Shown: positions 6,166 through 23,408 of the stretch, in pieces
Layout of the letters: each line of letters begins with the position of its first letter
How positions within the stretch are numbered: the stretch's first letter is position 1
DNA from: Alloascoidea africana
Taxonomy: Eukaryota > Ascomycota > Alloascoideomycetes > Alloascoideales > Alloascoideaceae
Length of the DNA stretch: 25,881 bases
Reading direction: 5' to 3'
Assembly: GCA_030581615.1 (NCBI GenBank)
Contig: JAKTTT010000115.1
Location: 1 to 25,881 of the forward strand
The notes under the pieces: generated by a model
Seen by the model: the letters and a program-made list of their open reading frames with translations, nothing else
What the model was told of the DNA's origin: nothing
Database searches by the model: none
Program-made: the position numbers and the translations under genes

Positions 6166-8649
6166 GAAGAGATTGTGTACTTCCTGCTTGGAGACGAACG
6201 AGCTTGTTTCATCTCTGCTTCTACATTTTAGACACTGCCATTCTATTCTATCTGTGGACCACAACCCCAGACTTGTAAAGACAACCCCTCCCACAGCAAA
6301 TCCTCTACTATTTTTTTTGGCTTATTTGCATGCCTAGGTTAAAGGGGTATCGCTCAAAAGGTGCAAGCGCAAGACGATATTACCGAAGCATCCAGCTACA
6401 ATTGAAATAATAAAAGAAAAAAGACCAAAAAAAAGCTGAAATTAGTTTGCTTTCTAACTGCCAAATTTCATAATTGTAACCAATCCACTAGCGACAACTT
6501 GTTTCGTGTAGATCTGGAAATAAATTTTCAAACCCAAGATAGGAACTTGTCGTGTCGAAGCCTGCTTTTGTTCAGTCTTGGACTGTTAAGCCTCTCTTTC
6601 TCATTGGTACACATGAGTCTATCCATCATGGAGAATCAAGCATCAATATTTTTTTTCTGTTTGCCTAAAGTCGGCTTGCCCTGCTAAATGGGCAAAAGGT
6701 AGTAAAATTGAAGAAGCGCCATGTGTTGATAAGACAGTAAGGAATTTTGGATATCCGACTTTGGCGTAGTGTTTAGAAACTACTTCCAATTTTCACTGTT
6801 TTTCTAAATAACATCTGGATAGATACTTTGCTTTGAACAAGATTTCATGCAATTGGTTAGGATTGGATCTAATCTAACTGGTCACTGGTATATATCTTCA
6901 AAAGTACAATTACTATCTGCTGAACCACCCTCCACTCAATCACTGATCTCTTTTTATTACTAATTTGGTGTTTCCCAATTTTTCAACCCAATGCTCATAC
7001 TCATCAACCATCTCTATCGCATTGTACTATTAGCCCCCCATATACGCCAATCTCATTGGTTCAAATTTATGGCACCAGTCAGGACATATGGGACCAATTG
7101 AGAATACCATTTGTACGTGCTGATCCTTCATTTCAACTCCTTTGGTTAACATTGAATTGTATTAAAAACTCCAATAAACGTTAATATATATCGGGGAGTA
7201 GAACCGCCCATTCATTAACCACCAGCAGCCAGAATCTTTTTTTATTGTTAACCCTTACTTTTTGGTTTTGTGTTTTGGGTGAACGGACTTTTTAAAGTGA
7301 AAATGTTGGCAGGGTAACCAAAGTAAGTTTTTTTTTCCACCACAAAAACCGCTCCCATTTTTTCTAGTACCTTCTGTTTCTTCACCCACAAGAGAAGAAT
7401 TGCATTCAAAGCTTACAAAAGAACCAACTTTTTTGTTTTTGGTTAAATTTAACATGTTTTGGGGAAAGTCTCCGGTCATAATGAAGTGGAAACACAACGA
7501 GGAACTATATTCAAATAGCCTTGTTGAAACTTGTCGGTTTGGTGTAGCACTGTCTAGTTCGGGATTTACGCCTCGGTCTAATAGGTTTTCTACTTTTGCT
7601 TTTGCATATTTGCCCTGAGTATATCTGCGGTGTTTCCTCTTGAAACTTTATGTGATCTTTTAAGGTCTCAACTGTTTGAATTCTTTGGTTGTTTGCTTCA
7701 GCTGGTAGCAAAACTTTGGATCGATGGGAAAATTCATTTCTGTTCTATTCTTGTGCTTACTAAATTGTCATGTTTCTTTTTTGCTGTGATTTTATCACTG
7801 CTTTTATTTCGACGATGGATAGTTTTCTATCTAAACGATAGTTATGCAATTGCCAATTCTTTCTAGAATTGGGAACACAATGGAGCTCATTCTCTCTTGT
7901 GGGTCCTTTTTTTTTTCCAACAAACTTGATCCTTTTTTGTGGATATGCATAGTCAAATATGCCAAGTTTATCTCTTTTTTTTGCTATTGCTATTGCTACG
8001 TCATGATCCAATCTATTTTTCCCTTGGTAATATCTTGAGAGGCCTCATTCGTTGTGAGGATGCCGAGGCTGAGGATACTTGAGTATAGCACGAATGATGA
8101 GATACAATACAACATAGAGTCAAGCTCAGAGGATCCAAAAGAGATTCAAAGACGAGACTTGTAAACTATTTTCTGACTATGCTATATTAAGATGAATCAG
8201 CCTCTAGTAAGCAGCCTCAAGACATGGCCATGCGATGAATAAATTGAATCAAAGACCATCCCAATATAATCAGCTTACCATCCGTACAATTTGTAAAACT
8301 TGATAGGAAGCAAAAACATAATTTTGTCATTCAACCTCTTGTCAGCCCTTGCCTGTGTCATCAACTCTGGGCTGGTGTGACGTCAAATAGAAAAAGAGTA
8401 GGCAGTATTCAAGACACGCATACATAGTAGAGTGACCCCACGGAGTCATAGTTAATGTTAACATGCCACTTTACGTGTGGAGAAGCCTGTTTTACAACAA
8501 TGATCAACACACGGACCAATAAAACAGGATCATTACAAAACCGCACAGATTCTTCTAGAAGTCTCCAGATCTGATCAAATGTCGCAGTTAAAAGTAGTTT
8601 TGGTTTGCATTAGATGACGGTTAGGTAAATCTTAAGTACTGGGATGTGT

Positions 8650-8702: not shown

Positions 8703-9004
8703 CCATTATACCGCCAATTGAGTTTTGGGTCTTTTTATGCGGGAGCAGAGGAATCGGGTAAATCCAAGGTTTGATTGTGTAACGATCAGTAAGAATAGAA
8801 AGTAGATGACATCTATAGAAATCATAATAATATCTTCCTCTCGGATCTTTTCTTCTTTCTATTCTCCTCGGTTGTTTGGGAATCTTTTCTTGTGATTTCT
8901 GTTTGGTTTTTTTGTTCTTTTACTTCTTACCCTTTGCACTCTGTGTTTTTCCCCCAATTCCCATCCTCCAACCTTGCGCAACAAACAAAAAAGATCAAAT
9001 CAAA

Positions 9005-10948
9005 ATGTCAATAAACAGAAACTTGAAACATCATCTTCTTTTTGAGATTTCAACCGAGGTTGCAAACAACACAGGCGATTTTTATTCGTGTTTGAAATCA
9101 AAATCCTCGGTGGTTGAGAAAGAGTATGGGAAAAGGTATCATTTAATAGGTCCTCTAAATATCCAAACCGCAAAAGTTGAAGTTGAAGAATTGGAAATTG
9201 AAAACAAATACCTCGAAAAAGCATTGAAATCGATGGGTGAAAAAGGAATCCGATACCTATATGGCCGTTGGCTTATAGATGGAGCTCCAAGAACTATTCT
9301 TTTCGATACAGATTCCGCAATGCCATTCTTTGAGGAGTGGAAAGCTGATCTTTGGTCAGTTGCCGGTATTCCTGCCCCCGATCAAGACGGAGAAACAAAG
9401 GAAGCGATTTTATTTGGATATCTTGTTGCTTGGTTTTTGGGTCAGTACGTGACAAATGATGGAGGAACTGCTGTCGTTGCCCATTTCCATAACTGGCTCG
9501 CTGGTGTCGCGATTCCACTATGTAGAAAGCGAAAAATTGATGTTACGACAATCTTCACCTCTCATTCCACATTACTTGGTTCCTACCTTTCTTTGGAAAA
9601 AAATGCTACTACCTCAACCAATTACTATGAAAAATTGCCCGAGTTTGATTGCACGTCAGAAGCTGGCAAATTGGGAATTTATCATCGCTATCGAATAGAA
9701 ATGACAGCAGCCCAATTAGCCGATGTTTTCACTGCCACTTCTCTAATCACTTCCCTTGAGTCTGAACATTTCTTGAAAAGAAAACCGGATTTGGTGACCC
9801 CGATTGGTCTTAACGACAGATCAAAATTTTCAGTTGATCTTCATGAGTTTCAAAGTTTGCACACTCTACAGAGGAAAAAAATTAATCAGTTTACAAAAGG
9901 ACATTTCTATAGCCATTATCAATTCAACCTCGATAATACGCTCTATTTTTTCCACGTTGGAAAATATGAATACAAAAATAAAGGTGTGGATATGTTTATT
10001 CAGTCGTTGACAATCCTAAACAGACTTTTAAAAACCGCAAAGTCAGACAAGACAGTCGTGGCGTTTATCATCGTGCCCATTGAACCGACATCGACATCGA
10101 CAACAGAAACAGTAGCAGGACCATACAATGTTGAAACACTCATGAGTCAAGCGCTCATCAAGGCACTTGGTGATACTGTGAGCGAAGTTGGAAGAAGAAT
10201 CGAAAGTCGCCTATTTCAACACTGTTTGGACTATCCAGATCATGGCAGAGAGGTGCCCAACTTGGAAGACATATTGTCCAAACACGATGAAATCATGATC
10301 AAGAATCGTGTCTTTGCCCTACAGAATCTGGGGAATGGAAAAAACACTTTACCCCCAATTATTACTCATGAATTGGTAGATAAGGAAAATTCCGGAAGAG
10401 GAGACCCCATTTTGAATGACATTCGGGCCGCTGAATTGTTGAATGACCCCTCAGATCCAGTCAAAATAGTCTTCCACCCAAGGCTTCCCAGCCCCACTAG
10501 CCCTGTTTTACCACTAGACTATATCAATTTTATGAGGGGCTGTGATTTAGGAGTTTTCCCTTCTTACTATGAGCCCTGGGGTGCACTAACAGCGGAATGC
10601 GCAACAATGGGCGTTCCTACAATCACTTCAAATCTCTCTGGCTTTGCAAGACACTTGGAAAACACTCTCAACTTTGATGATTCTACACAAATGTCGGATT
10701 ACGGAATTTACATCGTCGATCGCGTTTCAAAATCGTTCAGAGAATCTGTAAATGATCTGGCTAATTACATGTATCATTTTACCAAAAAAACCTCGAGAGA
10801 GAGGATAAATCAGAGAAACCGCACTGAAAGACTTGGTGATCTGCTAAGTTGGACTAGAATGCATCGTGAGCTTGAAAAAGCACGAAGACTTTCTTTGGAA
10901 AAAGCATATCCTGATCAGTTTCAAACTAGTTATAAAAGGAAAGCTTAA
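9005..10948 (+). CDS. Divergent GT3 glycogen synthase paralogue, lacks regulatory tail
   Basis: 647 residues from ATG 9005, no intron. The frame stays open upstream to about 8876 but has no ATG there. Homology to Gsy1/Gsy2 (about 705 residues) runs end to end: HLLFEISTEVAN, YHLIGPLN, YGRWLIDGAP, WFLG, CRKRKIDVTTIFT, GIYHRY, HFLKRKPD, HEFQSLH, NTLYFF, VVAFI, IFHP, RGCDLGVFPSYYEPWG, SDYGIYIVDR, RINQRNRTERL. Motifs shared by yeast and human enzymes are altered: NxVGGIY reads NNTGDFY (21-27), HEWLAG reads HNWLAG (162-167), THATLLGRYL reads SHSTLLGSYL (186-195), PNGLNV reads PIGLND (266-271), GRYE reads GKYE (319-322), PWGYTPAE reads PWGALTAE (524-531). Kept are Lys326, Glu523, Glu531 and most of the glucose-6-phosphate arginine cluster (597-609), though one arginine is Ser (596). 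The protein ends just after YPDQF, so the phosphorylated C-terminal tail is absent. It may be an inactive or modulatory paralogue; altered activity is the alternative. Confidence 0.92.
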   Translation: MSINRNLKHHLLFEISTEVANNTGDFYSCLKSKSSVVEKEYGKRYHLIGPLNIQTAKVEVEELEIENKYLEKALKSMGEKGIRYLYGRWLIDGAPRTILFDTDSAMPFFEEWKADLWSVAGIPAPDQDGETKEAILFGYLVAWFLGQYVTNDGGTAVVAHFHNWLAGVAIPLCRKRKIDVTTIFTSHSTLLGSYLSLEKNATTSTNYYEKLPEFDCTSEAGKLGIYHRYRIEMTAAQLADVFTATSLITSLESEHFLKRKPDLVTPIGLNDRSKFSVDLHEFQSLHTLQRKKINQFTKGHFYSHYQFNLDNTLYFFHVGKYEYKNKGVDMFIQSLTILNRLLKTAKSDKTVVAFIIVPIEPTSTSTTETVAGPYNVETLMSQALIKALGDTVSEVGRRIESRLFQHCLDYPDHGREVPNLEDILSKHDEIMIKNRVFALQNLGNGKNTLPPIITHELVDKENSGRGDPILNDIRAAELLNDPSDPVKIVFHPRLPSPTSPVLPLDYINFMRGCDLGVFPSYYEPWGALTAECATMGVPTITSNLSGFARHLENTLNFDDSTQMSDYGIYIVDRVSKSFRESVNDLANYMYHFTKKTSRERINQRNRTERLGDLLSWTRMHRELEKARRLSLEKAYPDQFQTSYKRKA

Positions 10949-12950: not shown

Positions 12951-14149
12951 TTAAAAAAACAAATCATGGGCCCTTTTCTTCCTTCTCCTACTGGCCGGTT
13001 CCACTTGGACATTTATAATCTTCGCCAGCCTTTCAGCATTTGGATTCTTGAACCTTCGGTCCCTATTACCGTCTTTGTTTATTCTCTCATTCATCGATTT
13101 TCGTCCCGGTGACCTAGACCTTGAACGAGAGGAACGAAAGCCATGTCTACTTCTAGATTGGAAATCTGGGAACAGGTCATCGTCGTTCGTTTTGGTTCCA
13201 GTGTACCTATCGTTCGCCCATCTTTCGGCTCCAATTTCGTCTCTCACTCCTGGTTCATATCTATCCTCTCTTTCCCTGTAGTTGCTGCTTCTTCCTCTTT
13301 CGCCCCGCCCACTTTGTAGTGCAGAGAGTTTCTCGGGGAATAGATCTTCATCTTCCTTTGGCTTTATCGAGGGAAACAGATCGTCTCCATCAGCTTTGAC
13401 TCGACGAGGCCGAGATGGATCAGGCCGATATGCTTTCCTTTCAATATATCTATTTTATGCATGTTAAAAATTTGTAAACCTGGGGGCGTGAATCAGCATC
13501 CACACTTACGGTTTTGTAGGTTCTCCATGAAGTAGATAATACCGACTTTGTGCTCTTGCGCCAACCACTTTTTTATCCTTTTTGTAAGCCATTCGAAGTT
13601 TCAAGTCTATTTGAGCATGTTCTGGGTCAACTTTTGCCGGTCGCAGTATCTTTTCTTCTACATCACCTTCGTAATATGCAGATGGAGAAGTGAGTTGGTT
13701 GAGAGCATCTGAACAGTCATCATAAGAATCAAACACGATAACAACTAGAAAATATGGCCAGGGTTAGCATTCATGACTTTGAATGAGTTTTCAGGTTAAC
13801 CTATAACACATACTCGAATTGTCATCCACCCATTCTAAAATGTGCCTCAAGTTTGGTATATGTGATTTCAAATATGCTTTCACATCATTTGTAGATAAGT
13901 CGGCTACACCAAAGAGATATAAAGCTTCTCTTCTAAGGTCATCTTCAATTTCATCCTTCATAGAAATTAGTACTGATAATTTTAAAATGGCCTTTGTGAG
14001 GATTTGGGCCATACCTTGTTTGTCTCTTCAGCCATCATATTTTCATCGTCTTGGTCCATCGTCCCGGGGTCAGCGATATTAACATTCTGAATATATTCTA
14101 GATCCTTATTGTCATCAACTTGTATTTCATCCTCATATGATAAATCCAT
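12951..14149 (-). CDS. NCBP3: NCBP3-like (DUF2414) RNA-binding protein, 4 exons
   Basis: Minus-strand exons 14149-14015, 13955-13814, 13744-13510 and 13449-12951 give 336 residues, with all phases consistent. Residues 1-55 are acidic. REALYLFGVADLSTNDVKAYLKSH (54-77), ILEWVDDNSSIVIVFDSYDDCSDAL and KKVVGARAQSRYYLLHGEP (150-168) correspond to the NCBP3 signatures ALYLYGVDDMSTQDV, IEWLDDTS and KKELGAARRSQYYMKYGNP. This is an RRM-like fold that in animals binds cap-associated complexes and supports mRNA export. The C-terminal half is charged and disordered, with an RS stretch near 268-285 and DLFP at 194-197, 206-209 and 262-265. The very end is HDLFF. Introns have GTATGG/TACTAAT, GTATGT/GCTAACC and GTAAGT/TTTAAC sites. 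The role in this yeast is inferred from family only. Confidence 0.85.
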
Positions 14150-15057
14150 GATTATGCGTTGTTTCTGATTTCAGACTTTTTGTAGAAAGGAAGACTAAAA
14201 CTGAATTGGTCAACAAGGCTTGGCAGGGTAACGACTCTGAATATTGACTGAGATTCGAGTGGGTGGACAGCCATCACCAACTAGGTACCACTTTTTTTCT
14301 AATGCTAAAAGGAACCCTCTTTCATTACTTGCAATGATTAGGAAAGATTTATATCTGAATCTTTATCTAAACTTAAGCGGTCTGCTGTTAATGTTCTAAC
14401 TGGCTGAGTGAAGGAACAAACACAAAGTTGACTGGGGTAGAGAATTACATAAGTGAGATGGTTGAGTTTGGTTAATTTAATTTGGGAAACTGGTGTTTGA
14501 AGTCTTTAAATTCTCTTGGGAACTAGTTGCCTGTTGAACTCTTGAGAATCAAGCGTAAAACGTTTACCTCCAACGTTGGCGTCATGATTATGAGAATTGT
14601 ACTCTTTCAAAATTCGTGGGGGCATATGAAAAGGAGATCACGATCTTAAATCCGAGCTACACGCTTTTCACTTTGCTTGTAGTTTTCAGAAAAAGAAGAA
14701 TAATAATAATATTCACCAACACAAATGCTTTTCACAAGTCTTGAATGTGAAAAATTATTCTCAGACGTCTGATTTTGTTATCGTTGTGAGGGACATCTGT
14801 CTGCACAAAACCAAAAAAATGATGCGTTTTGACAGAACGCATAACAGATTTGTATACATTACAGAACCAAACTCTGTATCTTGGTAATTGAATCAATCTA
14901 AAGTCTCTACAGAAAAGACCTGGATTCGGAAAAACCTTCGTAACTAGCTTGGGCGACTGAAAAAGTCCTTTTTGATTTAAATGATCAAAAGAAACTGAGA
15001 TTGGAAAGATGTGCTTTAGCATATTCCTGAAAGAATGTACAGCAAACAAAGCTTCGC

Positions 15058-15084
15058 TTCGGTTAAGATTTTCTATTAACCGAA
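15058..15084. repeat. 9-bp hairpin
   Basis: TTCGGTTAA (15058-15066) and TTAACCGAA (15076-15084) are perfect reverse complements around a 9-nt loop, 7 bp before the ATG of the 15091-15372 open frame. No T-run follows. Confidence 0.6.
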
Positions 15085-15090
15085 AGAGAA

Positions 15091-15372
15091 ATGCACTGCA
15101 TTTACATTTCTAGCTGTCTCGAATCTTGCTGCAACTTTGCTGATCTACCAAAAGGAAATCACAGTTATACTTCTAGATCAATTGGTGGACTATATTACGA
15201 TTCAAAAACTGTTTGTTTTTCCGTTAACAAATATTTTTGCCGAGAGAGTCAAAGTTTGGGTTTAAAATCTAACCACGATCCTGATTGCAAAGTCTCAAAA
15301 GATGAATATGATTGTTCTGTTACAGTCATGCCTATGAAAGGACCCAATATTTTTCCTTTTCATGCAAAATAG
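15091..15372 (+). CDS. Doubtful 93-aa cysteine-containing open frame
   Basis: ATG-initiated frame of 93 codons in a geneless region. The product has eight cysteines (including SSCLESCCNF and DPDCKVSKDEYDCS) and no clear signal peptide or membrane segment. I do not recognise it. Listed because it is the longest ATG frame on the plus strand here and a hairpin lies just before it. Chance occurrence is more likely than a gene. Confidence 0.15.
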   Translation: MHCIYISSCLESCCNFADLPKGNHSYTSRSIGGLYYDSKTVCFSVNKYFCRESQSLGLKSNHDPDCKVSKDEYDCSVTVMPMKGPNIFPFHAK

Positions 15373-16213
15373 AAACACAGAATTTGGCTTGAATTAATGC
15401 ATCGTAGACGTTGGAATGATGTCAATCCTTTTCCCCTGGATTAAACACAATTATTCTTTTTGAAGCGTTTTCTGGAAACGCAGTATGGAAAAGTTTCAAG
15501 TCAAAATGGTTTCAAAAGTGAATACACAGAAAGAGATGATGCTTAACTTTACCTTTCAAGAGCGACCATTCAATTCTGGCCACTATTTTATCTGACTTAT
15601 AAACGGCATGGGCACCATGGCAAGAATCATCAGTAGAATGATGAACAGACCAACTAAAAGAAAGAATGAAGCAAGCAATGGGGCATCTGCAAGGCACAAT
15701 GGGATACGCTTATGTAGCATTGCCAACTTCAAAGCTGTAAGTCAAACGACACATAACTGTTTTGATCTCAAACATACGAAACCGAGGTGATTGCTCAAAG
15801 TCGGCAATGAGTGAGAATCAGGAAAAGAAACAAAACCACTGGGATGCCTTAAGAAATACGATGGCTACGTGAAATGGTGTTAATGTGTAGCGAAAATAAT
15901 ATCAATAGCAAGATCGAAATCTAGACACTTTGAATTTCAGGTACTATTATTCCTCGGCCCATTCAACGCCAACCTTCTGAGTCCTTTGAAATGAAAATAA
16001 GAAATTAAAAATAGGAACACCATATATGCCTAACTTTTGTGGTGATTGTGTATCGTACCAGCTTTAAGGCGGTGTGTTTGCCATATAATTGTTTTGATCC
16101 CAGTTCCCTTCGCTTATGCCAATTACTTCTTTCTTCAATGAAAGCTTAAAATGCATAGCCGTTTTCTCTCTCTTCTGGCATAATGGGTTAGTCAATTAAT
16201 TGTCCAGTAGAGT

Positions 16214-16297
16214 TTTAAGAGGACCTCCTATTATTAGAGCTGCTCCAGCTCTTAACTGTTGAACAGGTCTCGAGGAAAAACAAGGCGAACTGGAGCA
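16214..16297. repeat. Dyad-rich patch, possible structured RNA
   Basis: AGAGCTG-CTC-CAGCTCT (16236-16252) is a perfect 7-bp hairpin. TTAAGAG just upstream pairs with CTCTTAA ending at about 16255. TGCTCCAG (16241-16248) is complementary to CTGGAGCA (16290-16297). The stems are mutually exclusive. No coding sequence covers it. Confidence 0.4.
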
Positions 16298-16832
16298 ACG
16301 TGCTTCAGCCCACCTTATCTCTACACCATCTTCAGCACAGACTTTTAAGAACACAGTCTTACCTTGCTGTTTTCAAGGCAAAACATTTCATCCACCACAA
16401 AGAACATTTAAACACAGCGAGATCCAAAAAGGGTAGCTCACCAGACTTGCCGAGGTCGGTCTTGTGCTTTTGCCTTACAACATTTTTCTTGTCATGCAAC
16501 TTGTAACGGTATGCAAGGGCGCACATGCACATTTTGTCTAGTGGGTATTAAATATCAGGACAAAATGACCTGGAGCATGAGGTTGGAGTTACCAGCTGAG
16601 CTTTGTTTCTTAAACAATCAGGACACGTAGAGGATGTTGGAGATAGTGTCGTGATTATTTAGGTGTAAAAGCAGGAAATAAGAGAATCTTAGCAAGCGCA
16701 GATAGGCAGATAGAGATACCTCTCCAGTACAGTATTTAACAAGTAGGAATTCCCTCTTGTTGGCACTCTATTGTTATATCTGTGATTCTCTTCTTTACAA
16801 AAACAGAAACCAGACTCATTACATAACGAAAC

Positions 16833-17870: not shown

Positions 17871-18581
17871 TTGGTTTCCCAGGGCATTTAGAATCATCAG
17901 AAACATGACAATACCACCAACATTTTTTACAAAAGAATTCGTTAATTTGCATTTTATCCAGGCTTTCCTTTACTTTGCATCCATTAGCTACTTGTTTCTT
18001 TGCCCATTTCATATCATATACCACTGAACCACCAGTCCTAATAATGATGTACCATAAATCTTTGGCATCTTTGTACCATCTTTGCAACATTAACAATAAT
18101 TAGTCACAGTTGTATTTTATAATTTACTTTCAAATAATTTTAAAAAGGAAATCAGAATCTCTCAACCTTGGGCATTTAACGGATCTGTTAGAAGAAACAG
18201 TGATCGTTTTGATTCTTCCAACCAGGTTATTCTAGAATTATAAAAAGTACAAACCTGTCAAAAAAATCATAAAATCCATAACCAAAACAGGCTTTTAGTA
18301 CACAAGTATTGGATTTTGTTCCTCCACTTTTATTTGTTTTAAGTTTTTCTGGCAGGTACTATCTGATCTAGCTTACAATTAAAACCTTGATAAAGGGTGA
18401 GCAGTTAAAGAGATATGAAAACCACCATACAAATTACTTTTCATGTCCCATATTTTTTTTATGGAAAGAGAGTATCAATAATGCATATGATTACTGACCA
18501 CAAATATTAATTCTTGTTCCTATTTCGTAACTTGTCGTATAGAGCTGAATTTGTGACCGAAACGAAAGGCTAGAATTGAGA
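17871..18581. other. Convergent TPR gene/RPB4 3' region
   Basis: 711 bp between the stop codons, AT-rich. A minus frame at 17836-18096 overlaps the end of the TPR gene and has no recognisable feature, so I take it as chance. Nothing else is visible. Confidence 0.55.
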
Positions 18582-19331
18582 TTATAGAGGCGCTTCTAAT
18601 CGTCGTAGCTATCACAGATGTTAAAAGTGACCAAGGTTAGGGCAAATAAAGATAAACATACCTGGTTTAATATGACCTGTAACTCATCATCTGTCTTTTT
18701 CCCTGCCAAACTTGGAATCAATGTTTTTGCTTCATCCGCTTCGTCACAGGCCAGAGAGCCTATAATAGTTTCAGGTGTTAGTACACACCTAATCAAACGC
18801 ATTATTCTTCTGAGGAAAATCAATTGTATGACTTACCCAATTGAGAAATCTCAAACGGATGCAAATCTGAAGCTTCTTGAGATTTTAGCAGTTGATCAAC
18901 AGCACTGATAGTCTGGGGATTCTTGAACCTGGCAAAAATAGAGAGATAATCAAGCGTTTTTCTTATCACCCTAAACGACAGGACAAAATTAGATCCTTTT
19001 CTCATGGGACGTTAGATGATCATACTAACTCATTTGTACTCGATAATCCCGAGTTATCTTCATCTCCATCTTCATTTCCCATCTCATCCTCTACTGTTTC
19101 TGGTATTTCTTCACCATTCATCTCGTTTTTCCTTCGCTTAAGAGCTTCTTTTATCAGAATTCTTGCCTCGGAAAGATTCAAGGCAATTAAGGGCGCGACG
19201 TTTCCATCGTGATCGATTTGTTTCACATCAAACTCGGGTCCAAGCTTTAGCAACGCAGCGTTTTCTTCTTCTAAAAGACCCTGGGTTTGACGTCTCCGTT
19301 GTTGTGGCACAGTTGAAGTGGATAGATTCAT
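18582..19331 (-). CDS. RPB4: RNA polymerase II subunit Rpb4, 4 exons
   Basis: Minus-strand exons 19331-19030, 18970-18837, 18759-18662 and 18608-18582 give 186 residues (S. cerevisiae 221). Rpb4 pairs with Rpb7 as the Pol II stalk. [27 protein letters not shown] and [17 protein letters not shown] (48-64) match the yeast N-terminus. After an acidic linker shorter than in S. cerevisiae come [41 protein letters not shown] and the final helix. Introns 2 and 3 are clear (GTAAGT with TACTAAC; GTATGT with TAG). The last exon is only 27 nt and encodes LRRLEAPL plus the stop, agreeing with RPB4 C-termini elsewhere. Intron 1 (19029-18971) requires the unusual donor GTTAGT for phase. The more canonical GTATGA four bases on would break the frame. 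Confidence 0.93.
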
Positions 19332-19643
19332 CTTTTAGTAACTAAGAGAGTGGTTGATCTGTTTGGAATAGTGATGCGTTCTAGTAGGCGTAATAAAATA
19401 TCTAACAATATTCTTTTGATCCAAAATAAAGCTTTATCTTAAAACACGTTCTTGAGCTGGTATCGCTTTTTTGGTTTCTGTAAACTCTTTATAATTTTGC
19501 CCTCCAGCTGAAACGTGAAAAGTCCAGGTTGAAAAATCAATATCAGCGACGACAAAAAACGGTACTGATAATAGTAATATGAGTAATACTGGTGAATATA
19601 CAGGTATGCCTATTAAAAGTGACCCGCACGTATGGCGTTTCTA

Positions 19644-19678
19644 TTATCAATCAACAAGCGCTTGATGGTTATTGATAA
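19644..19678. repeat. Nested dyad upstream of RPB4
   Basis: TTATCAAT (19644-19651) and ATTGATAA (19671-19678) form 8-bp arms enclosing CAAGCGCTTG (19655-19664), itself a perfect 10-bp palindrome. It lies about 315-345 bp upstream of the RPB4 ATG. Confidence 0.55.
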
Positions 19679-20868
19679 ACAAGCCTGTGCTTATGTTCCA
19701 AAGTGAGGAAGGGCACAATGGTGTGTAAATTGTGGAATGTAGAGTGTAAATTGAGGCATAATTGTTGAAGAGGAGATCAGTCTCGAAGTTCTGGAAGTTA
19801 CGCCATGCCTGAGTTTACACTTCAGATACATTATTATAGGATGTACTATTCTTTCATCACGTTCGCACTTTATGTCTGAAAGTATTAAAAGACGTACGTA
19901 ATCGCAAAAATGTTCTCATCATTATGGGAATCAGAGTCGTCATCGAGATTGTCTGCAACCTTGATAAAGTATAGTAAAGGAATAACATCCCCACTCCTCA
20001 ACATTACAGGTTTTAGCAACAATATTATCAATCAAGGTGCTTTTCTCCAAACCCTTCGTGGTCAAATATTCCAAGTTTTTTCAAATGATAGTTAGGGATC
20101 CTCGTCTTGATGTAAACCATCTGAATTTCAATATTTTGTTCAAAGTCGAAACATAAAGTTCCAGTACCAGTTGTCATCAACACCCTTTAGCACCCCTCAA
20201 TTACCCATGATTCTCATCCACAATACGGTATCCATTAATGCAATGCTTCAAGCAGCAGCTAACTATCGTGTGATAGGTGTCTGGATCAACCACCAAACTC
20301 TTCTAAAGTGGTGATATTCCACTGTCACAATTGACTGTCGTTTGATCATTCTCCAAAACTTTTTTCCATTTTCTTGCATGTGATAAAACCTGCAAATAAA
20401 TAGCCAATCTTATGAAAAGTAGAAGGGATATGTAGTATCTGACTGATAACATATTAACGTTTCAATTCAAAAACTACGCAAAACCCCCAGAACAACCGCT
20501 ACACTCTTTCCTTCGTAGTTTTACTCAATCTCGTATATGCGACCTCGTATAACCCCGAAACATAACTTTATTTAAATAGAGCATGTATTCGTTAGATAGC
20601 AGAATTAACAGGTTTGAATCCTCCTCGATCAATTAATTTGGCCTTTCCCACACTTCCTTTCCTCGCAGACACATGCTACAGGATGCGTGGATGATCTTGA
20701 TGTGGCTAGCGAATGTGACAAAGTGACAATGAAAAACACAGACATAACCTCGAGAATAATAGTGGAACTGAGCATGTACATTTATCTTGCATGATGTTTG
20801 TGTCGAGACTACAACAGATCTATGAATTTTTTTTTTGATCTCTGTTAATTCGCATTCTCTATTTTCGG

Positions 20869-20911
20869 TTGATCGGTACGGGTGCAGAAAAATGCACTCG
20901 TACTGCATCAA
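20869..20911. repeat. 43-nt hairpin
   Basis: GTACGGGTGCA (20876-20886) pairs with TGCACTCGTAC (20893-20903) over 11 bp with one G-T wobble around a GAAAAA loop. An outer TTGAT (20869-20873)/ATCAA (20907-20911) adds 5 bp after a small internal loop. No gene overlaps it. Confidence 0.65.
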
Positions 20912-22422
20912 GTTGCTCAGATCTTGCATATACAGCGCTGTACCTTGTTGTTATGCTATAGGTTGTTTTATTCAATCAATCGCAAAAAGTTGAGACAAAA
21001 AGGAGATTTACAGAAAACAATACAGGTAAAGTTTGCTTGTTATTGTATGTTGGTATTAGTTATTTTTCATCTACCGCTAGTTTAGTATGTGGGTAAGTTT
21101 CAAAGAGGTAAGAGGTCAAGTTGCAATTTCCGCTTCATTTCATTTTAGACAGAATTTGTTGATCTCTTTTTTATCGATCAAAATCAGGGAAATTTTGGTT
21201 AATTTTATTTTTGCTTTTTAATAGAAAGTCTTTATTCAACGAATTTGTGAACCAAGCCCTTTTTTTTTTTTTTTGAGAAAAAACACTTTAAAAGAACGAA
21301 GTAACGCAAGGAATTGCCGAACCTTTCATTGAAAATCAGAAATCCCAAACTTACCACTTTTTTCTTTGAGGAAAAATCAGCATAGCTCAAAGGTTTTGCT
21401 TTTCAATCCAATAGAATCATGCCCACTCCACCGAAAATGGAAAAGGGAACAGGAGACAAATCTCATGTTGTATGTGTGCAGAACGATGTACATTTTAGTA
21501 TGCAACTATGCTAGAAAAAACATGAAAGAAAACCAAAATGAGTGTGAAAACATCTATAGATGTGGAACAAACATATGAAACAACAACAATCAAAGTTGTA
21601 CTGTAGCGATAGATCTTTTGGAAGAAAAACATCCGCATAAGCTACATGATGTAGCATATAGAATACGTATGTTTTCGATCTACCAGGCTCTATAATTTTC
21701 TCTTTTGCACTTTTGGAAACTACTGTTAGTCAAAAATACAAGAAAAGATTAATCTATCATGAGAAAGTTCTTAAAGCTAGGATGAACGAATGCTCAGACC
21801 AAATACATTCCACCAAATTCAACCAAAAAAATTGACTCTATCAGAGCCTCAGGTTCTGGTCAAATTTCGTTTTTGGACTCTTTGACCGAGGAATTGTTCC
21901 TCAACCTTTTTGGTATTAAAGCCATGGATGGACCAATCTATTGTTCGCATTGGGAATCTGTGGCAACAGACGGACAATCTTCTACATTTCTTGGTGGGGT
22001 ATCAAATCTACCTAAAATAAATAATGTTTACCAAGCAAATGCCCAAATTCAAAGGTTTGGGATTCATCTCTGAGTTTAGGGCAAATATATATATATATGG
22101 AACAAGAAAAAAGAATTCTCGAGATGCGAAATGAACACGACTCGGGAAATGTGACAATTAATCTCGTGATTTGTGTAGATCAGCAACTGCATAGACCATT
22201 CGGCTTTGTGACACTTTGTTGGAAAGCCAGAACTCATAGACATGTACAAAATACGTGAAAGTGGAGAGTCTTGTATGCCTAATCATAAACAATCAGGATA
22301 TACCTTTATATACATTGAACAGCAGTTATTATGGAAAAGTTTAGGTAAACTATGATGGATAGATAGATAGATCAAGAGAAAAAAAGGTCGGAGTTGTCAG
22401 AATCCATCCAAAAGCCCCTATG

Positions 22423-22460
22423 GGTCCTTGGTCCTTGGTCCTTGGCCCTTGGCCCTTGGC
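22423..22460. repeat. 7-bp tandem repeat (GGTCCTT/GGCCCTT)
   Basis: Three GGTCCTT units (22423-22443) followed by two GGCCCTT units and a partial GGC, about 290-320 bp before the GLTP ATG. The homogeneous blocks of each variant suggest recent slippage. Confidence 0.85.
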
Positions 22461-22744
22461 GAAAAACGAAGAAGACCGGGAGTGATCAATCAGTGTATTA
22501 ATCTCTGAATTTATCCATCAATTTAACTATGTATAGAATCCCAATTGTCAATTCCTCCAAATTGCGGTTCTAGGAGTATCAATGTGTTGGAAATTCGCTG
22601 GAGTGGTAAACACACATCATCCAACTCTTGTGCAACGTCACCACCTCCTTCTCCTTCTCCTAACACTCCTCCTCCTTTCCAATTCCACACACACACACGC
22701 ACAAGCCCCTAGCCTTCAGAAACTTTTCTTGAAACAAATCAACA

Positions 22745-23408
22745 ATGACCGATGCCACATTTTTCGACACGATGAAGGTCTCATTTGAGCAAGTTCCCAT
22801 TGATCCTAATGGGGACAAGATCGAGACCAGTGCATTTTTGGAAGCAAGTGAGGCGTTGATCAAGTTATTTGATCTTTTGGGTTCAAGTGCATTTTCCGTT
22901 GTTCAGAATGATATGACTGGGAATGTTAAAAAGATTCGAAGCAGGTTGTTGGCGAATCCAGGGGAAAGTGGAACTTTACAAGATCTTGTATTGAATGAGC
23001 CTTCTATTGATAAGAAGAAGACAGCAACACAGGGACTATTGTGGTTGAACAGGTAAGTATAAACAAAACAAATAAGCAATTTCAATATCTAACTGTGTAT
23101 CTAGAGGTCTTGATTTCACAGCTCAAGCAATCAGACAAAACATTGATTCAACAACTGAGGAGGAACTTTCTGTATCTTTCCAATCCTCGTATGGAAAAAC
23201 TTTGAAACAATATCATAATTTTGTAGTCAAGGGGGTTTTCAACGTTGCTTTAAAAGCATGTCCTTATCGTGTTGATTTTTACAAGAAATTGGGATCTGAT
23301 TTTATCAAAGTTAAAAAACAATTACTTGCTTGGTTAACTGCACTTGAAAACGTGGTCAAAATTATTCAAGACTTTTTCACTTCTGGAAATTACGGTAAAG
23401 GATTGTAA
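22745..23408 (+). CDS. HET-C2/GLTP-fold glycolipid transfer protein, 2 exons
   Basis: Exons 22745-23052 and 23105-23408 give 203 residues, the usual GLTP size (about 205-209). The family moves glycosphingolipids between membranes from the cytosol. Podospora HET-C2 of this family also takes part in vegetative incompatibility. The sugar-recognition residues of human GLTP are present with the same spacing: Asp56, Asn60 and Lys63 in NDMTGNVKK, Trp100 in GLLWLNRGLDF, and His140 in KQYHNFVVKGVFNVALKACPYR. The C-terminus is the amphipathic helix ENVVKIIQDFFTSGNYGKGL. The 52-nt intron (23053-23104) has GTAAGT, ATCTAAC and CTAG sites and splits the conserved W-L-N-R-G-L motif at an Arg codon. The upstream 120 bp has CT- and CA-rich tracts. 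Convergent with ECM33. Confidence 0.95.

Follow-up and report, generated by a model that had tools for sequence, protein, structure and literature searches.

A glycogen synthase homologue with an altered donor site in Alloascoidea africana, a candidate GT3 pseudoenzyme

Can a protein that descends from glycogen synthase still transfer glucose when motifs shared by the yeast and human enzymes are altered, and if not, what would keep its gene open? This question is raised by a gene of the yeast Alloascoidea africana, located in a window of 25,881 nucleotides (GenBank assembly GCA_030581615.1, contig JAKTTT010000115.1, positions 1 to 25,881), the whole stretch of DNA analysed here. Our best reading, to which we assign a probability of about 0.6, is that the gene product is a GT3 pseudoenzyme with an eroded UDP-glucose pocket, whose fold would be under selection and which would serve glycogen synthesis as a partner lacking catalytic activity. 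An earlier note on this DNA had proposed that the donor site is degraded, that the fold is preserved and that selection has kept the frame open in the past, and this combination is supported by counts of changes in invariant columns, a phylogenetic tree, a predicted structural model and a simulation of neutral evolution.

The gene and its surroundings

The gene occupies positions 9005 to 10948 of the forward strand, on which all of its features given below are located. Its frame of 647 codons contains neither a stop nor a frameshift, which bears out the continuity described in the earlier note, and the alignment of its product with yeast Gsy2 gives no sign of an intron. The open reading frame delimited mechanically extends from a TTG codon at 8876 to the stop codon at 10946-10948; we took the ATG at 9005 as the start because the resulting product lines up with the start of Gsy2 (MSINRNLKHHLLFE versus SRDLQNHLLFE). 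The 647-residue protein matches the Pfam profile PF05693 (Glycogen_syn) with an E-value of 2.6e-233 and a score of 776.7 bits, compared to a curated cut-off of 27, over positions 1-595 of the 639 of the profile. Judged from this match, it is by descent a GT3 glycogen synthase; a scan of NCBIfam returned a single match, below threshold. Among proteins of solved structure, its best relatives are yeast Gsy2, human GYS1 and the probable glycogen synthase 4qlb, which we take to be the C. elegans enzyme. The C. elegans enzyme was present in hit lists only, and the eukaryotic sequence controls were limited to Gsy2 and GYS1. The A. africana protein is 55% identical to Gsy2 and 47% identical to GYS1, and Gsy2 and GYS1 are 58% identical to each other. 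An altered genetic code was considered and set aside: the gene contains three CTG codons, two of them at positions where both Gsy2 and GYS1 have leucine, and one of these two sites is also leucine in 77 of the 80 bacterial sequences described below, which weakly favours the standard code.

Just upstream of the gene, on the same strand, Rfam models identify adjoining genes for RNase MRP RNA (7385-7902) and snR66 (8084-8186), the latter by a match only one bit over the Rfam cut-off; NME1 and snR66 are adjacent in S. cerevisiae as well. No stress element (AGGGG/CCCCT) was found in the 818 bases upstream of the gene. Neighbouring frames gave matches to a phospholipid methyltransferase, a transporter of the VIT1 family (CCC1-like) and an MTQ2-like methyltransferase. 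A short frame at 22745-23056 gives a partial match to the glycolipid transfer protein profile GLTP (positions 1-82 of 147), perhaps as part of an intron-split gene. The regions 13300-16800 and 18100-22700 hold no listed frame above 106 codons, which suggests intron-rich genes or large intergenic regions.

Residues of the donor and glucose-6-phosphate sites

Conservation was assessed using two sets of prokaryotic GT3 sequences. The first comprises 80 bacterial loci, the best 80 of 454 confirmed stretches when ordered by similarity to the A. africana protein, which were found with two peptide patterns (YEYKNKG and YHLIGPLN); a search of viral contigs gave 123 stretches with one of the patterns, none of which coded for a relative. 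The second set was obtained by an HMM search, using no peptide pattern, of 199 genomes of one phylum (that of locus L001), 33 of which matched and yielded 30 loci, three genomes giving none. L081 duplicates the stretch of L001, and the match of L107 is broken over two frames; both were dropped, and the other 28 of the 30 loci were aligned. This gave 108 prokaryotic rows (the 80, plus 11 ordinary and 17 remote GT3 proteins), all taken as synthases by family membership, in which the 28 may overlap the first 80. The remote proteins, titled Planctomycetota (L093-L106 and L108-L110), are longer and occupy open frames that span about 1,250-1,900 codons, with both matched parts in one frame. A scan of two of them placed DUF3417 after the GT3 part in each case, with a sub-threshold phosphorylase match next in one, hinting at a fusion of synthase and phosphorylase; the 91 other rows are referred to as non-fusion rows.

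All six motif changes listed in the earlier note are present in the alignment with Gsy2, the numbering of which is used throughout. In the glycine loop of the donor site, GGIY has become GDFY (G23D and I24F, 9077..9082), G23 being glycine in 107 of the 108 prokaryotic rows and a gap in the other. HEWLAG reads HNWLAG (E169N, 9491..9493), at a position held by glutamate in 107 of 108 rows and by glutamine in one; the title of structure 4kqm describes an engineered E169Q variant of Gsy2 in crystals that also contain UDP and glucose. THATLLGRYL is replaced by SHSTLLGSYL (T192S, A194S and R199S, 9560..9583), where position 199 is arginine in all 108 rows and position 194 is alanine in 106, serine in one and glycine in one. 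PNGLN has changed to PIGLN (N269I, 9803..9805), the asparagine being present in 108 of 108 rows, and GRYE to GKYE (R320K, 9962..9964), at the UDP diphosphate ligand position that corresponds to Arg331 of GYS1 and is arginine in 108 of 108 rows. PWGYTPAE reads PWGALTAE (Y513A, T514L and P515T, 10583..10591); Y513 is tyrosine in 106 of 108 rows (one leucine, one gap), and T514 and P515 are each conserved in 107 (one gap each). The uridine stacking residue F480 (Phe481 of GYS1) is also changed, to leucine (F480L, 10484..10486), at a position that is phenylalanine in 91 of 91 non-fusion rows and, among the 17 remote rows, tyrosine in 16 and isoleucine in one. R199, N269 and R320 are thus unchanged in every prokaryotic GT3 row, the 17 remote ones included, and all three are altered here. 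Three base changes are needed for Y513A, and two each for E169N, R199S and T514L.

Contacts with the donor were taken from the structure of human GYS1 with UDP and glucose, in which Arg211 and Ala206 contact the donor glucose (PMC9287172), and were transferred by alignment. Arg311, His287 and Lys19 of the same paper were excluded owing to a mismatch or a position outside the mapped stretch; in the GYS1 chain sequence the first two of these numbers correspond to His and Phe, respectively, and are perhaps misprints. The changed contacts are Phe481 to Leu for uridine, Arg331 to Lys for the diphosphate, and Arg211 to Ser, Tyr514 to Ala and Ala206 to Ser for glucose. Ile367, Gly41, Tyr493, Glu518, Lys337, Glu510, Pro511, Trp512, Gly513 and His205 are kept. 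The Glu pair was rightly said to remain, as both members of the E-X7-E motif, E509 (10571..10573) and E517 (10595..10597), are retained in the alignment, and so are K326 (9980..9982; Lys337 of GYS1, which contacts the diphosphate, PMC9287172), H193 and the PSYYEPWG block. Marks of a functional synthase are found in the E-X7-E glutamates and K326, and are missing at positions 199 and 320, where serine and lysine replace the donor arginines present in Gsy2, in GYS1 and in 108 of 108 prokaryotic rows, at E169 and N269, and in the donor-site segment Y-T-P.

The donor pocket as a whole differs from that of Gsy2 and GYS1 by G23D, E169N, A194S, R199S, N269I, R320K, F480L, Y513A, T514L and P515T. Within the invariant columns defined below, 5 of the 14 strict donor contacts are changed versus 17 of the 93 others, a difference that is not significant (Fisher p=0.13), and 10 of the 32 columns within two residues of a donor contact are changed (p=0.066). 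Because the enrichment at strict contacts is not significant, we interpret the erosion as including the donor site and reaching beyond it.

The survival of the catalytic glutamates and of K326 makes a weak enzyme, or one with an altered donor, possible; the retention of E509, E517, K326, H193 and PSYYEPWG, and of a positive charge as lysine at position 320, counts against the pseudoenzyme reading, and so does the breadth of the erosion. The same residues would be compatible with neofunctionalisation, in which the protein would remain a catalytic transferase but have a remodelled pocket and a different sugar donor or acceptor; the conservative nature of R320K, the conserved YYEPWG and a frame that looks maintained fit this explanation too. 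However, every one of the 17 remote GT3 rows retains R199, N269, R320 and G23, and E169 and Y513 each persist in 16 of these rows, whereas the A. africana protein has lost all eight of R199, N269, R320, G23, T514, P515, E169 and Y513, and we consider a new transferase activity unlikely.

The glucose-6-phosphate (G6P) site is altered as well. The claim that most of its arginine cluster remains holds for R581, R583 and R587 and fails for R580 of the regulatory arginine helix (Arg579 of GYS1), which is serine here (10793..10795) at a position that is not invariant in bacteria (arginine in 67 of the 80 rows and in 6 of the 11 further non-fusion rows). Three of the five phosphate ligands K290, H500, R580, R583 and R587 are changed. 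Besides R580S, these are the conservative K290R (9872..9874; Lys301 of GYS1), at a position occupied by lysine in 90 of 91 non-fusion rows and by arginine in one, and H500D (10544..10546; His501 of GYS1), where histidine is found in 90 of 91 non-fusion rows and aspartate in 16 of the 17 remote ones. On the sugar side, the contacts H280, E281 and Q283 (His291, Glu292 and Gln294 of GYS1) are kept. With three of five phosphate contacts changed, retained sensing of G6P by this protein appears doubtful. The phospho-regulatory tail is gone, as had been noted: the protein ends 8 residues past YPDQF (last 8 codons and stop at 10922..10948), and no tail-like stretch was seen in the three downstream frames.

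These observations could be accounted for by a divergent working glycogen synthase in which control by G6P and phosphorylation alone has been lost. H500D gives the protein the aspartate carried by 16 of the 17 remote GT3 proteins, in which most other G6P ligands are missing, and the loss of the tail goes in the same direction. We nevertheless regard this explanation as quite improbable: the donor-site losses extend far beyond regulation, and the remote proteins, which resemble the A. africana protein in their aspartate and poor G6P site, differ from it in that all 17 keep R199, N269 and R320, 16 keep E169 and 16 keep Y513.

Conservation, selection and predicted fold

We analyzed 107 columns whose conservation among the 80 bacterial GT3 sequences reaches 97.5% or more and in which Gsy2 has the same residue. 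The A. africana protein is altered at 22 of these near-invariant columns, a loss of homologue-invariant residues of the kind expected of a pseudoenzyme. When each of the 80 bacterial rows was left out in turn, the number of changes had a median of 0 and never exceeded 4 of 102, and it is on this comparison that the altered motifs exceed chance. With GYS1 as the reference, Gsy2 departs at 4 of the 107 columns and the A. africana protein at 26; with Gsy2 as the reference, GYS1 departs at 4 and the A. africana protein at 22. Among fully invariant columns, 16 of 80 are altered (G23D, I24F, V27C, E169N, T192S, A194S, R199S, N269I, R320K, A334S, F480L, Y513A, T514L, P515T, G534A and Y606L).

Private changes were also counted by class of column, and their surplus is greatest in the family-invariant class. 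In family-invariant columns, 24 changes are restricted to the A. africana protein, compared to 1 for Gsy2 and 7 for GYS1. The corresponding numbers are 37, 14 and 24 in intermediate columns, and 47, 26 and 58 in variable ones. The contrast between invariant and all other columns, for the A. africana protein versus GYS1, both against Gsy2, gives a Fisher p of 0.0056 with columns treated as independent. A maximum-likelihood tree, whose rows include the A. africana protein, Gsy2 and the first 40 of the 80 bacterial loci, joins the A. africana protein with Gsy2 (support 99/93), the end branch being 1.11 for the former and 0.30 for the latter; the tree tool flags the A. africana branch as long and its placement as unsure.

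Neutral evolution was simulated with substitutions only until 20% of residues had changed, the level of change seen at the invariant columns. At kappa values of 1, 2 and 4, respectively, 0, 0 and 2 of 400 runs remained free of stops. These numbers suggest that the frame may have been maintained by selection. A recent pseudogene or a sequencing artefact, for which nothing speaks beyond the lost residues themselves, is extremely improbable in view of the simulation, of 647 codons without stop or frameshift, and of substitutions that are in frame, several needing two or three base changes.

The predicted model of the protein, which has a mean pLDDT of 87.8 and a pTM of 0.86, adopts a GT-B fold like that of Gsy2 and GYS1, and its best Foldseek match is activated Gsy2 (3nb0_B, TM 0.91), in agreement with the earlier statement that the fold remains. 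The alignment used for the prediction was built from 65 of the 80 bacterial loci (L017, L033, L040 and L070 were dropped for a stop within their coordinates). Being derived from an alignment of bacterial synthases, the model indicates compatibility with the fold and not presence in the cell. The likeness to Gsy2 and GYS1 thus covers full-length homology, the predicted GT-B fold with its tetramerisation insert, E-X7-E, K326 and parts of the arginine helix, whereas the difference covers, beyond the donor pocket, the G6P phosphate contacts (K290R, H500D and R580S) and the lost phospho-tail.

Interfaces with glycogenin and between subunits were compared using glycogenin-side helices named from PMC9287172 and PMC9188544, with approximate boundaries. 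Within these limits, positions shared by the yeast and human enzymes are kept at 5 of 6 and 14 of 24 in the glycogenin-side helices and at 14 of 22 in the tetramerisation helices, against 233 of 341 overall, so that neither type of helix stands out as specially retained. Identity between the A. africana protein and Gsy2, compared to that between yeast and human, is 42 versus 35% in the tetramerisation helices and 62 versus 56% in the C-terminal helices, and is lower in the Rossmann-2 part (56 versus 69%). A minor intersubunit contact, Arg430 of GYS1, is changed in the alignment (R427N, 10304..10306).

Together, the excess of private changes, the long branch, the stop-free frame and the confident model point to a protein kept for a role other than ordinary catalysis. 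Such a role could also arise if this were the sole GSY gene of a yeast that has lost or reworked its glycogen metabolism, the protein being kept for another purpose or decaying slowly. Losses of glycogen genes in parts of Saccharomycotina are consistent with this explanation: according to PMC12322030, over half of a Dipodascales lineage has lost GPH1 and SGA1, and four Starmerella species have lost GSY1. On the other hand, plain decay is at odds with an unbroken frame and a confidently predicted fold at the end of so long a branch, and we find this explanation rather unlikely; it overlaps with the pseudoenzyme reading, and the probabilities behind our wording do not sum to one.

A possible non-catalytic role in glycogen synthesis

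In our preferred reading, the protein is probably a maintained member of GT3 that is catalytically dead or strongly altered, its inactivity and its maintained function both being deduced from residues, columns and frame. Erosion of the UDP-glucose pocket would have abolished or much reduced ordinary glucosyl transfer, and selection would have kept the fold despite this erosion. The protein might then co-assemble with a canonical Gsy tetramer or, alternatively, hold glucan or glycogenin on the granule. The identity of the partner is a matter of speculation, and so is the insensitivity to G6P and to phosphorylation of the tail that the pseudoenzyme would display.

Analogy with other glucan and disaccharide enzymes provides possible precedents. 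Yeast Tps3 and Tsl1 are non-catalytic subunits of trehalose synthase, inactive glycosyltransferase paralogues that serve as regulatory subunits; they belong to GT20 and are likened to the A. africana protein by description only. By this analogy, we tentatively propose that some yeasts may have a dedicated non-catalytic GT3 subunit which, blind to G6P and devoid of a tail, would form mixed tetramers with active synthase and fix the structural or regulatory state of the complex, a proposal that we hold with much less confidence than the pseudoenzyme reading itself. STARCH SYNTHASE 5 (SS5) of Arabidopsis is an inactive member of the GT5 class, and its resemblance, across a different family and in a plant plastid, is likewise one of description only. 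In PMC10801857, SS5 is named among granule-initiation components, and a reference title calls it noncanonical and synthase-like. The plant protein MKIP1 is presented in PMC13172542 as a branching enzyme without catalytic activity that has a role in intron splicing. It similarly represents a glucan enzyme that lost catalytic residues and was recruited elsewhere, but it is a branching enzyme with an alpha-amylase domain, comparable by description only. For GT3 glycogen synthases, no pseudoenzyme is described among the matches listed in the open literature, a scope outside which most subscription papers fall. C. albicans is reported in PMC10127583 to be without a functionally redundant synthase paralog.

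If the pseudoenzyme reading is true, this gene would be a natural experiment on the extent to which the glycogen synthase tetramer can function in the absence of catalysis, and would help to tell the catalytic roles of the enzyme from its structural ones in starting or shaping glycogen granules. GT3 would then join the glucan enzyme families that have inactive, recruited members.
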